From Alistipes sp. (GTDB taxonomy: Bacteria; Bacteroidota; Bacteroidia; Bacteroidales; Rikenellaceae), in assembly GCA_017504265.1 (NCBI GenBank), contig JAFVRN010000008.1:1-56238 (forward strand): a DNA stretch of 56,238 nt, written 5' to 3'. A program made the translations under genes and the position numbers. The notes below the pieces were generated by a model. The model made no database searches and had not been told where the DNA came from. It saw nothing but the letters and a program-made list of their open reading frames with translations. Positions 128 through 56,238 of the stretch are shown piece after piece. Position 1 is the first letter of the stretch, and the number at the start of each line of letters is the position of its first letter.

Positions 128-252
128 ATTTTTTGTCAGAGTGGCGCAGATGTTGCACCGATTAAGAAGTTGGCTCGGATGGATAGTACTTGGCGTACAT
201 TCCATTCGAGCCAACGATTGAGGTGCGACAGATGCGCCGCTATCACAAAAAT
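128..252. repeat. Tandem structured repeat, unit 1
   Basis: This is the first of three units that fold into a long imperfect hairpin. The ends pair as ATTTTTTGT (128-136) with ACAAAAAT (245-252). Moving inward, TGGCGCA (142-148) pairs with TGCGCCG (233-239), GCACC (155-159) with GGTGC (222-226), TTGGCTCG (170-177) with CGAGCCAA (207-214), ATGG (179-182) with CCAT (202-205), and GTAC (186-189) with GTAC (195-198). The apical loop is TTGGC. A 22-bp spacer (253-274) that resembles the next spacer follows. Confidence 0.85.
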
Positions 253-274
253 CCCAATCAGCGGTAAGACCCAA

Positions 275-398
275 ATTTTTGTCAGAAGGGGTTAGCTGTG
301 GCCTCGATTAAGAGATTGCCCCGGATGGATAGTACCTAGCGTACATTCCATTCGGGGCAATGATTGAGAGGTCGCAGATGACCCCTTATCACAAAAAT
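275..398. repeat. Tandem structured repeat, unit 2
   Basis: Unit 2 has the same architecture as unit 1 but different stem bases. AGGGGT (287-292) pairs with ACCCCT (381-386), GGCC (300-303) with GGTC (370-373) through one G-U pair, and TTGCCCCG (316-323) with CGGGGCAA (353-360). The apical stem is GTAC/GTAC and the loop is CTAGC. Both arms changed together relative to unit 1, which argues for a conserved fold rather than a conserved sequence. A 22-bp spacer (399-420) follows. Confidence 0.85.
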
Positions 399-420
399 CC
401 AAATTAGCGGTTATACCCTA

Positions 421-542
421 ATTTTTGTCAGAGTGGCGCAGTAGTGGCGCTGACACGAGAAAGGGCGGATGGGACATACTAAGCGTATTTCCCATTCGCC
501 CTTTGGACTGAAGCGTCGCTAATGCGCCGCTATCACAAAAAT
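421..542. repeat. Tandem structured repeat, unit 3, abutting the ilvE stop codon
   Basis: In unit 3, TGGCGCA (434-440) pairs with TGCGCCG (523-529), GGCGCT (446-451) with AGCGTC (512-517), AAAGGGCG (460-467) with CGCCCTTT (497-504), ATGGGA (469-474) with TCCCAT (490-495), and ATAC (476-479) with GTAT (485-488). The loop is TAAGC. The last base is shared with the minus-strand ilvE stop codon, so the array would form the 3' untranslated region of the metG-ilvE transcript if transcription continues. Confidence 0.85.
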
Positions 543-3995: not shown

Positions 3996-4361
3996 ATGAG
4001 ACGCGAACTACAAGCCCGTTATCTGTCAGAAGTCCTAGAACTTCGTAAACTTGGATATAGTATTCCATCAATATCCAAGAAATTACCCGTCAGTAAGAGT
4101 GCAATTCAGCGCTGGATTGTTAAATTTGCACCTGAATATCGTGAACTAACACTTGAGCAAATGGCACGCAAGTACAAAGGACAGCCCGAGAAGAGTGTAT
4201 CACAGAGTGATGATGTTAAGGCGTTGCAAGCAGAAATCAAGCGATTACAACAACAGCTAGAGTTGGCAGAAATACGCGCCGAGGTATACGACAAGATGAT
4301 TGACATTGCCGAGGCAACCTTTAACATCCCGATACGAAAAAAATCTGGCACCAAACAGTAA
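3996..4361 (+). CDS. IS3-family OrfA (helix-turn-helix regulator half of transposase)
   Basis: The 121-residue protein begins with a helix-turn-helix (about residues 8-48, with LRKLGYSIPSISKKL and SAIQRWIVKF) and has a leucine-zipper-like coiled coil around 72-105. OrfA proteins of IS3 elements bind the terminal repeats and repress or modulate transposition. Seven A residues at 4337-4343 in the frame cgA AAA AAA form a -1 slippery site, 18 bases before the stop. Slippage joins this protein to the OrfB frame. Confidence 0.88.
   Translation: MRRELQARYLSEVLELRKLGYSIPSISKKLPVSKSAIQRWIVKFAPEYRELTLEQMARKYKGQPEKSVSQSDDVKALQAEIKRLQQQLELAEIRAEVYDKMIDIAEATFNIPIRKKSGTKQ
4337..4343 (+). promoter_or_regulatory. 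Programmed -1 ribosomal frameshift site
   Basis: The heptamer A AAA AAA sits in the OrfA frame. A -1 slip here enters a frame that is open from 4325 through the OrfB stop at 5374 and reads through LCGLFGVTKQAYYK, the usual N-terminus of IS3 OrfB. The predicted fusion is about 459 residues. This follows the known expression mode of IS3 transposases. Confidence 0.8.
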
Positions 4362-5374
4362 GGTGTCTGCACACAGAGAGTGCTACGCGTTATCGCGTAA
4401 GTACTCTTTGTGGGCTGTTTGGTGTTACAAAGCAGGCATACTACAAACTCGATGATAACATATCCCATCGCAAGGCTGTGCAAGAGGAGTTTGTACTACG
4501 CTATGTACGCGATATTCGTACTCGAGACCGTGGCATAGGAGGCAACAAGCTATGGTATATGTACTGCCGTGATTTCGGTAACAACTTCCCCGTAGGTCGT
4601 GATCGTTTCTACGACATACTATCGAAGTATGGTCTAAAGCTACGCCGCAAACAGCGTACAACACGCACTACAAACTCTCAACACGGATATAGACTATATC
4701 CTAACTTAGTCCGTGATTTTATTCCTACCGCAGCTAATCAGCTATGGGTGAGTGATATAAGCTATATTATTATACGCCCTATAGATGCTCAACCGAGGTT
4801 TTCGTACCTATCGCTTGTACTGGATGCGTATAGTGAGGAGATTGTCGGTTGGAGTCTTGGCTCTACGCTCGAAACACTCTATCCAATTAAGGCACTGCGT
4901 ATGGCGCTATGCCGTATTGATGGCAAGAAAACAGAACTTATACACCACTCGGATAGAGGGTGTCAATATGCCAGTGGCGAGTATGTATCGCTACTTAAGG
5001 AGCACGGCATTAGCATAAGTATGACCGAGAGTGGCGACCCTAAGGAGAACGCCCAAGCTGAGCGTATTAATAATACCATGAAGAACGAACTATTGAAAGA
5101 TTGTCGTTTTGAGAGCGAGGAGGAGGCACGCATGATAATTGCCGAGGTTATAGCTTTTTACAACAATGAGCGACCTCATATGAGTATTGATATGATGACA
5201 CCTACGGAAGCTGCGCAATGTGCAGGCGAGATAAAAAAGAGGTGGTATAGCTACCGTGTGGCGGCGATAAAGAGAGAGTCGATTTGTGATATTACGCAAA
5301 ATGGTTTACCTTTGCCGCGCAGCGCGGGGTCGCCTTCGGGGCTACGCCCCTCCGTCAACCCCGCGCAGGGATAA
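4343..5374 (+). CDS. IS3-family OrfB transposase (integrase core, expressed by -1 frameshift)
   Basis: This frame encodes the catalytic half of the transposase. A GTG at 4478 is the first internal start, but family knowledge favours production as an OrfAB fusion from the slip at 4337-4343. Counting from the GTG, the catalytic triad is D93 (LWVSDISYI), D159 (HHSDRGCQYAS) and E195 (AQAERINN), with exactly 35 residues between the last two, so an rve-type DDE core. The final 24 or so residues (from NGLPLPRSAG) are encoded by an inserted GC-rich palindrome and are not normal family sequence. The true family C-terminus is probably near the SYRVAAIK stretch. Confidence 0.85.
   Translation: MWHQTVRCLHTESATRYRVSTLCGLFGVTKQAYYKLDDNISHRKAVQEEFVLRYVRDIRTRDRGIGGNKLWYMYCRDFGNNFPVGRDRFYDILSKYGLKLRRKQRTTRTTNSQHGYRLYPNLVRDFIPTAANQLWVSDISYIIIRPIDAQPRFSYLSLVLDAYSEEIVGWSLGSTLETLYPIKALRMALCRIDGKKTELIHHSDRGCQYASGEYVSLLKEHGISISMTESGDPKENAQAERINNTMKNELLKDCRFESEEEARMIIAEVIAFYNNERPHMSIDMMTPTEAAQCAGEIKKRWYSYRVAAIKRESICDITQNGLPLPRSAGSPSGLRPSVNPAQG
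5316..5370 (+). repeat. GC-rich palindrome inserted at the 3' end of the transposase gene
   Basis: GCGCGGGGT (5322-5330) pairs with ACCCCGCGC (5358-5366), and an inner GGGGC (5338-5342) pairs with GCCCC (5346-5350). The element is read through in frame and replaces the transposase tail. Its composition differs sharply from the AT-richer sequence on both sides. Confidence 0.75.
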
Positions 5375-5497: not shown

Positions 5498-5601
5498 ATG
5501 GGTTCAGTGGGTTTTGTGGGTTCTGTGTGCTCTGTGGGTTCGGTGGGTTCGGTGGAAAATCCCCATCTGACCCATTGGACCCATTTAACCCATCTGACCC
5601 A
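5498..5601. repeat. Short TGGGTTCTG-type minisatellite with conserved ACCCA tail (copy A)
   Basis: Degenerate 9-bp units of the type GGGTTCTGT occupy 5498-5553. A tail at 5554-5601 begins GGAAAATCCCCATCT and consists of ACCCAT/TTAACCCAT steps. The same combination recurs at 55376-55848, almost 50 kb away, with a nearly identical tail but a much longer repeat tract. Confidence 0.8.
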
Positions 5602-5728
5602 CACTGCTTCGCAGTGGCAGGGCGCAGCCCTGCAACACAAAAGCAACGCTCCCTTCAGCTACCCTTCAACTACCCTTTAACGCCGCAGGCGTGAACTACC
5701 CTTTCCTCTGCAAAGCAGAGGGCAGGGC
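5601..5728. repeat. Right arm of the inverted repeat flanking the IS
   Basis: This arm is the reverse complement of 3828-3956 over 128 bp, with the same order of small palindromes. Unlike the left arm it does not touch the IS, because the minisatellite block lies between them. Confidence 0.85.
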
Positions 5729-5787
5729 CCTGCCCTGCAAGGCCTGTCTGTCCCTTGCACCGTTTGGGATAGGGCATCGCCCTGAAA

Positions 5788-55375: not shown

Positions 55376-55799
55376 ATGTGTTCTATGGGTTCTGCGGGTT
55401 CTGTGCGTTCTGTGGGTCCTGTGGGTTCTATGGGTTCTGTGGGTTTTGTGGGTTCTATGCGTTCTATGAGTTCTGTGGGTTCTATGAGTTCTGTGGGTTC
55501 TGTGGGTTCTGCGGGTTCTGTGGGTTCTGTGGGTTCTGTAGGATTTGTGGGTTTTGTGGGTTTTGTGGGTTCTGCGGGTTCTGTGGGTTCTGTGGGTTCT
55601 GTGGGTTCTGCGGGCTCTATGGGTTCTGTGGCTCTGTGCGTTTTGTGGGTTCTGTGCGTTCTGTGAGTTCTGTGGGTTCTATGGGTTCTGTAGGATTTGT
55701 GGGTTTTGTGGGTTTTGTGGGTTCTGCGGGTTCTGTGGGTTCTGTGTGTTCTGCGCGTTTTGTGGGTTCTGTGGGTTCTATGGGTTTTGTGGGTTCTTG
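55376..55799. repeat. Large 9-bp minisatellite (GGGTTCTGT units)
   Basis: About 420 bp are made of 9-bp units of the type GGGTTCTGT, with variants such as GGGTTTTGT, GCGTTCTGT and GGGTTCTAT. Because the unit length is divisible by three, several frames stay open on both strands and yield Gly-Ser-Val, Gly-Phe-Cys or Thr-Glu-Pro repeats. None has a start region or a signal that I would call a gene. Confidence 0.9.
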
Positions 55800-55848
55800 G
55801 GAAAATCCCCATCTAACCCATTGGACTCATTTAACCCATTTAACCCAT
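55800..55848. repeat. Conserved ACCCAT tail after the minisatellite (copy B)
   Basis: This tail of about 49 bp starts GGAAAATCCCCATCT and continues in ACCCAT steps. It matches 5554-5601 with only a few changes, so the repeat tract and the tail form one dispersed module. The tail's AACCCA is complementary to the TGGGTT of the tract. Confidence 0.85.
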
Positions 55849-55851
55849 TAT

Positions 55852-56238
55852 CCCCCCCCCCTCAAAAAAAACACTCCCTCCCGCTGCACGGGTATGTAAA
55901 AGTATACCCGCATCGTGCCCCCTCGCTCCACCGCGTATGACACCCACCTACACCCACTCACACCCACTCGCACGCCACTCACCGCCACCACCACACCACA
56001 CATTATCCCCCTCCTCAAAAAAAACACCCCTCCCGCTGCACGGGTATGTAAAAGTATACCCGCGCCGTGCCCCCTTGCTCCACCGCGTATGACAACCACC
56101 TACACCCACTCGCACGCCACTCACCGCCACTCCGACACCACACATCGTCCCCCCCCCCAAAAAAAAACACCCCCTCCCGCTGCACGGGTATGTAAAAGTA
56201 TACCCGCACCGTGCCCCCTCGCTCCACTGCGTATGACA
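55852..56238. repeat. Three tandem units of about 150 bp with poly-C/poly-A runs and a hairpin
   Basis: Units are anchored at GCTGCACGGG at 55883, 56035 and 56179, so the spacings are 152 and 144 bp. The third unit is cut by the window edge. Each has a C run (10, 5 and 10) and an A run (8, 8 and 9), then a perfect 7-bp hairpin CGGGTAT/ATACCCG (first copy 55889-55895 with 55904-55910), then a C-rich tract of CACCCACT-like steps. No gene is supported. Frames on the minus strand repeat the same residues and look like by-products. Confidence 0.85.

Follow-up and report, generated by a model that had tools for sequence, protein, structure and literature searches.

The window, by which we mean the whole stretch of DNA analysed (56,238 nucleotides), is one entire contig of a 1.83-Mb, 48-contig genome assigned to Alistipes sp. 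Near its left end, three hairpin units stand in tandem beside a gene on the − strand (542–1555, an open frame of 337 aa) which we take to be ilvE, encoding a branched-chain aminotransferase; 54 of the 61 same-genus genomes contain a match to it at E 1e-100 or better. In the coordinates of a covariance model built from 13 copies, unit A, the farthest from ilvE, occupies 127–254 (114.9 bits), the middle unit B 273–400 (116.9 bits), and unit C, which adjoins ilvE, 419–544 (109 bits), all on the + strand. Each forms one long hairpin, so the three-unit array described in an earlier note on this DNA is real, and the stem sequences and compensatory changes among the three units are as given there. 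Measured at their left ends, the units are spaced 146 and 146 bp, and measured in their right halves, 146 and 144 bp. Two spacers of the same kind separate the units, one at 255–272, (C/A)AAT(C/T)AGCGGT(A/T)A(G/T)ACCC, and the other at 401–418, and a similar spacer stands before the tail in other copies.

The earlier note had the array abutting the ilvE stop codon, and the two are in fact closer than adjoining: the last three bases of unit C, TTA, are the stop codon itself (542–544), read as TAA on the − strand. Its suggestion that the array may continue past the window edge did not hold, as the distal tail at 1–124 (− strand) contains no further hairpin unit by the model and position 1 is the contig end. 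This tail carries a terminator-like stem at 82–103 (− strand) in a terminator scan, and is also found behind another copy in the same genome (locus L027).

The better-folding strand of the array is the + strand, antisense to ilvE. With RNA energies, units A, B, and C reach −71.6, −69.0, and −71.3 kcal/mol (z-scores −11.2, −9.7, and −10.5, with none of 200 shuffles as good), compared with −57.2, −53.1, and −57.6 kcal/mol on the − strand; with DNA energies the three units again beat shuffles on both strands, the + strand being the better. Unit B belongs to the commonest subfamily among the copies inspected in this genome, where its relatives are 94–97% identical. The paired changes claimed within the array are present but did not arise in it, the subfamilies that differ here being found at other loci of the same genome as well.

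A dispersed family of covarying hairpins

The covariance model and the search of the genome and of other Bacteroidales that the earlier note had proposed revealed a dispersed family far larger than three units. The window's own genome has 54 BLAST matches on many contigs, next to unrelated genes, as single, double, and triple units up to 98% identical (the window itself excepted). Among the 61 same-genus genomes, searched with stricter filters and with the best 57 candidates at most scored per genome, 39 have a model match, own genome included, and 22 have none at E 0.001; with 150 candidates scored in each, genomes G039 and G040 have 112 and 101 matches. Across the whole order, again with stricter filters and for the best 11 candidates per genome, 3 of 295 genomes match at E 1e-7: our own and two from two other families, G321 (one match, which the pattern search does not recover) and G387 (five matches). 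The genomes compared are draft assemblies, many of them incomplete. A pattern scan of a genome contig collection returned 16 stretches, of which 14 come from records of Alistipes sp., Rikenellaceae, or Muribaculaceae; L034 and L044, the remaining two, fold poorly and are taken as chance. Phages and plasmids gave no match to the element, nor viral contigs to its pattern. The hairpins are a real, widespread, dispersed family in gut Bacteroidales, undescribed as far as our literature searches reach, in that the titles and abstract beginnings searched hold no description of it.

Covariation over many copies, as scored by a program other than R-scape, is strong. In 94 copies (92 distinct), 31 of 37 pairs show double-sided changes and 93.1% of cells pair, in an alignment that was fitted to the covariance model and so favours the structure. 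The covariation score of 0.519 compares with 0.194 (sd 0.007) for shuffles, none of 500 of which reach it, and with 0.08–0.13 for slid structures. In a MAFFT alignment of 13 copies, from which the structure was itself derived, double-sided changes occur in 21 of 37 pairs. The covariation in the 92 distinct copies supports the earlier claim of selection on the structure, whether as RNA or as a folded strand of DNA. Among genomes, even the terminal stem covaries (TTTTTGT/ACAAAAA, TTCTTGT/ACAAGAA, TTGTTGT/ACAACAA), and beside it stand two motifs with little variation, TGTGATA(A/G) towards the gene and TCTGACA at the opposite side, which are complementary except at two bases.

Most of the 30 loci inspected in the window's genome share one layout: gene stop, hairpin or hairpins, spacer, a 9-bp repeat in variable number (TGGGTTCTG), and small GC-rich hairpins. 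In other genomes the hairpin is alike and the tail different, and the hairpin alone is therefore taken as the unit. By eye, the tails of the own-genome loci (L001–L030) stop at a nested set of positions on the side remote from the gene, as though shortened from that end. Two more copies of the tail module lie in the window at 5499–5740 and 55380–55860, neither with a hairpin unit in front, and consist of TGGGTTCTG repeats (47 units at 55380–55801) followed by CCCATTTAA-type repeats. The module at 5499 runs on into small GC-rich hairpins and lies beside an insertion sequence of two frames (3996–5374), presumably IS3-like, the start of which also interrupts the 9-bp repeat tail in L008/L029. The contig end (55960–56238) is a tandem duplication of period 144 with 91% matches, a C-rich repeat with GGGTATG...TATACCC. 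At a Muribaculaceae locus (L046, HAN063), CTGACAAAAATTTTTTGGATGCGGGTCTGAAGATCCCT is repeated behind the hairpin, as though only the right end had been duplicated.

Stop-codon junction, folding strand, and orientation

The position seen at ilvE is common in the family. The test set was 108 distinct arrays with 330 nt or more of upstream sequence; these are best-match loci rather than a random sample, and L034 and L044, taken as chance, are among them. In 68 of the 108, an open frame of at least 100 codons ends within −4 to +1 of the hairpin start, 67 with TAA and one with TAG; at the far end, the same test gives 2 of 96. As background, 529 open frames of G039 and G040 end with TAA 320 times (60%), TAG 178 times, and TGA 31 times. 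In the 40 arrays outside the strict window, the stop is 5–250 nt upstream (25) or inside the element (5), or there is no long frame (10). In G004, by eye, four of five orthologous genes end with TAG and the fifth with TAA, the length being equal in four. In G387, of another family, the TAA of a presumably GroEL-like gene lies four bases ahead of the hairpin and that of a presumably MetG-like gene at the hairpin, and three stops lie inside the hairpin; the Muribaculaceae copy (L046) stands behind what we take to be a ribosomal protein S16-like gene. The genes at the junctions may be highly expressed.

The ilvE site itself was compared in 30 of 35 clade genomes, and by eye 21 of these carry the element, intact or decayed, at the stop, often as different subfamilies. 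The other nine (G022, G035, G058, G089, G109, G114, G117, G124, and G130) are without it and have an ordinary terminator-like stem instead. Presence and absence are thus seen between relatives, the empty sites all coming from other species. In G058, G130, and G103 the last 300 nt of ilvE are 95–96% identical, and only G103 has the left arm of the hairpin, between the ilvE stop and the same native terminator. G132 and G134 share flanks but differ in the hairpin that these enclose, and downstream they retain the right half of an older hairpin that is complete in G021. The left end follows TA, and in 99 copies the right end AAATT is followed by T (37), G (28), A (27), or C (7); from these right-end flanks, no target-site duplication is demonstrable. 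The codons just ahead of the 68 junctions also have a composition of their own: third positions at −7 and −4 are C at a frequency of 0.51 (background 0.24 and 0.25), and AAA, the third commonest last codon in the background (46/529), is outside the top twelve.

The strand antisense to the upstream gene is the more stable in 130 of 138 distinct copies with RNA energies (mean −66.4, against −50.6 kcal/mol for the other strand) and in 132 of the 138 with DNA energies, and in all displayed hairpins of G387 and of the Muribaculaceae locus L046. GU pairs make up 688 of 6504 pairs on the antisense strand (10.6%), compared with 76 of 5761 (1.3%) on the other. From this folding bias and GU asymmetry between strands, we infer selection on the antisense strand. 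Mutation bias was rejected as the source of the asymmetry by reasoning, since a leading-strand C-to-T bias would place the wobble pairs on the sense strand, contrary to observation. On the 3′ side of the apical helix, a T-rich stretch is found on the sense strand in 79 of 138 copies and on the antisense strand in 18.

Orientation follows GC skew. In G039 and G040, the model matches are largely one-stranded across entire contigs; 150 of their 213 matches, forming 122 arrays, made up the orientation set, of which 82 arrays on nine contigs with sampled skew were counted and 40 left out. The folding strand is on the C-rich strand in 74 of the 82, compared with 254 of 479 genes on the G-rich strand in the sampled stretches (arrays against genes, binomial p 5e-13). 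The uncounted arrays include those of G039 contig 10, which has mixed skew (+0.014, −0.007, +0.019, +0.070) with nine arrays on − and two on +. By convention, we treat the G-rich strand as the leading one. Of the marker genes, tuf and rpoB in contig 4 and, in contig 6, gyrA together with fusA (a weak match) are on the G-rich strand and groL (contig 4) is off it, with six tRNAs on the G-rich strand and seven on the other. Should the G-rich strand indeed be the leading one, the genes at the arrays would point in the direction of the fork, and the folding strand would serve as template of the leading strand. In the window's own genome, orientation is uniform in 8 of 10 contigs with several matches (40 of 54 matches used). 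The window has a skew of +0.066 overall and of −0.018 and −0.008 in its first two 8-kb pieces, where the array lies, so that its polarity is not clear. The orientation would have been kept either by selection or by loss of copies in the other orientation.

Enzyme searches and competing explanations

These hairpins join genes at their stop codons, fold better on one strand, and are oriented with GC skew, a combination that matches none of the families tested. We give about even credence to the reading of a non-autonomous mobile element that is processed as a folded single DNA strand by a trans-acting enzyme and joined at stop codons. The array at ilvE would then be three copies of a dispersed element of about 120–146 bp, active as single-stranded DNA of the strand antisense to the upstream gene. 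This strand would fold into a long imperfect hairpin, with recognition through its shape and through the conserved bases that adjoin the terminal stem, TGTCAGAAG and CTTATCACA as read on the folding strand. Copies would be joined at the TA of the stop codon, leaving the gene with a TAA end and its length kept; further copies joining at the same place would give arrays; and copies would persist where the folding strand is the leading-strand template, being seldom single-stranded there. We likewise infer that the folded strand acts as DNA and that the element is moved by a trans-acting recombinase or transposase.

A linked enzyme of this kind, which the earlier note had proposed to look for, did not emerge above cut-off in searches for Y1 transposase, integron integrase, and DDE_3. 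Y1 transposase (PF01797) was found in 5 of 14 control genomes and in none of the 61 same-genus genomes, own genome included, which rules out REP/RAYT and a derivative of IS200/IS605, whose TnpA is of the Y1 family. Integron integrase (TIGR02249) gave no match above cut-off in the 61 genomes, with weaker matches in all 61, and none in the 14 controls either, so that this search has no positive control. IS630-type DDE_3 (PF13358) was above cut-off in none of 20 genomes, 14 of them copy-rich (one weak match, in G002; controls 2/14), which weakens an IS630-type MITE. A reverse-transcribed, SINE-like element, suggested by the exact gene junction and ragged tails, is weakened too: reverse transcriptase (RVT_1, PF00078) occurs in 20 of 61 genomes and is absent from the copy-rich G000, G017, G055, and G058 (87–94% complete), where a SINE-like or group II retroelement would need it. 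Tyrosine recombinase (PF00589) has two matches each in the copy-rich G039 and G022. Those of G039, a 98% complete genome with its 112 element matches, are its only two and are probably XerC and XerD, so Xer action on the hairpin is possible. No copy with an internal gene appeared in the 977,626 bases scanned for wider end pairs; six of the seven pairs found are separated by 180–277 bp, like the ends of double or adjacent hairpins, and the seventh (3.9 kb, L037) was not accepted as an autonomous copy as it starts in a complete hairpin. No Rfam family exceeded its gathering score in the window, where three sub-threshold matches are microRNA models (best E 0.025). The earlier note had recognised neither attC, nor a REP, nor a known RNA class, and with attC boxes in none of 138 hairpins, no Y1 transposase, and no Rfam match above threshold, this judgement stands.

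The hairpin could instead be a structured RNA, transcribed from the antisense strand and spread by gene conversion; it might, for instance, block or process antisense transcripts heading for the end of the gene. An antisense GU share of about 11% would fit RNA as well as DNA, and together with strong covariation is usual in functional RNA; a fixed place at gene ends also speaks for this. We nevertheless consider it unlikely, as replication polarity is unexpected for an RNA and the sequence upstream of the hairpin on the antisense strand differs among genomes, so that no shared promoter is seen. Positions 1–1000 of the window hold no sigma-70-like promoter, although the promoters of Bacteroidetes belong to a different type. 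A 3′-end element of the upstream gene, a terminator or mRNA stabiliser spread mainly through its usefulness there, would account for the stop-codon position, which recurs in another family, for the T-rich stretch being mostly on the sense strand, and for the ordinary terminators in its place in the nine clade genomes without it. Terminator as main function is weakened because the antisense strand folds better, the mRNA strand being the poorer fold, and because the terminator scan is negative in the three units and positive in the tail; G103 moreover keeps its native terminator downstream, and a terminator has no need of replication polarity. We regard this explanation as rather improbable.

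Size, palindromic form, the TA beside the left end (TA, then ATTT), and the AAATTAATTT junctions in three tandem pairs (L095, L100, and L105) would suit a MITE-like element, in the manner of ERIC, Correia, and RUP, that belongs to a DDE transposase inserting at TA. Stop codons would not, however, be singled out by insertion at any intergenic TA, the right flank has no TA enrichment, strand polarity is unexpected, and DDE_3, the sole DDE family searched, was lacking above cut-off as described, which together make such an origin very doubtful. Scarcely credible, finally, is a non-mobile polar feature of the chromosome, serving replication, repair, or segregation and copied by gene conversion, with orientation under selection through the loss of hairpins that sit on the lagging-strand template. 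The orientation along GC skew and the different hairpins between the same flanks in G132 and G134 agree with it, but the 22 same-genus genomes without a match at E 0.001, with the stricter filters, make the hairpin seem dispensable, and the exactness at stop codons is left unexplained.

Returning to a mobile folded strand, a bolder version can be put forward tentatively, as a possibility that we hold at somewhat under even confidence: a new class of mobile DNA in Bacteroidales, in which a hairpin travels at the replication fork in the form of one folded strand and is aimed at stop codons by an as yet undiscovered enzyme, with dozens of genes per genome ending in a copy and keeping their function. 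We know of no mobile element that targets stop codons. If real, it would show how a repeat can multiply without harm, to about a hundred copies in a genome of 2 Mb, and would hint at an undiscovered recombinase or fork-linked process. Because copies, decayed copies, and empty sites share the same gene in close relatives, the family is also a natural test of the interplay between hairpin DNA and the direction of replication.

Relation to known systems

In size, copy number, and long stem-loops, the family resembles ERIC, YPAL, Correia/NEMIS, and RUP, which are described as about 100–200 bp long, with many copies and long stem-loops (PMC2229807). It differs from them in standing at stop codons, in its GC-skew orientation, in pairs that covary widely between species, and in that the right ends of 99 copies demonstrate no TA duplication. 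REP/RAYT and IS200/IS605 are like the reading favoured here in that their secondary structures are reported to be used as single-stranded DNA, with a link to the lagging-strand template (PMC6006769). REPs measure 20–40 bp (PMC3733652), compared with about 120 bp here, and the Y1 transposase of REP/RAYT is missing from all 61 genomes.

The family also resembles the attC sites of integrons. An attC site is a long imperfect hairpin downstream of a gene, with its shape kept more than its sequence and one strand active, and its boxes have the consensus R″ RYYYAAC and R′ GTTRRRY. The family here shares the long imperfect hairpin, the conservation of structure with variable sequence, the better folding of one strand, and the place behind a gene. 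In contrast to attC, none of the 138 distinct hairpins has the R″ and R′ boxes on either strand, integron integrase is not found above cut-off in the 61 genomes, and the copies are dispersed singly at ordinary genes rather than gathered in one cassette array. Membership is therefore rejected, and attC is retained as an analogue. The orientation polarity of the folding strand is the same as that of sedentary chromosomal integrons, reported for 25 of 30 (PMC5371416); inverting one such integron leads to more cassette excision and impaired growth (PMC11023631). The element looks like attC and may work like it.
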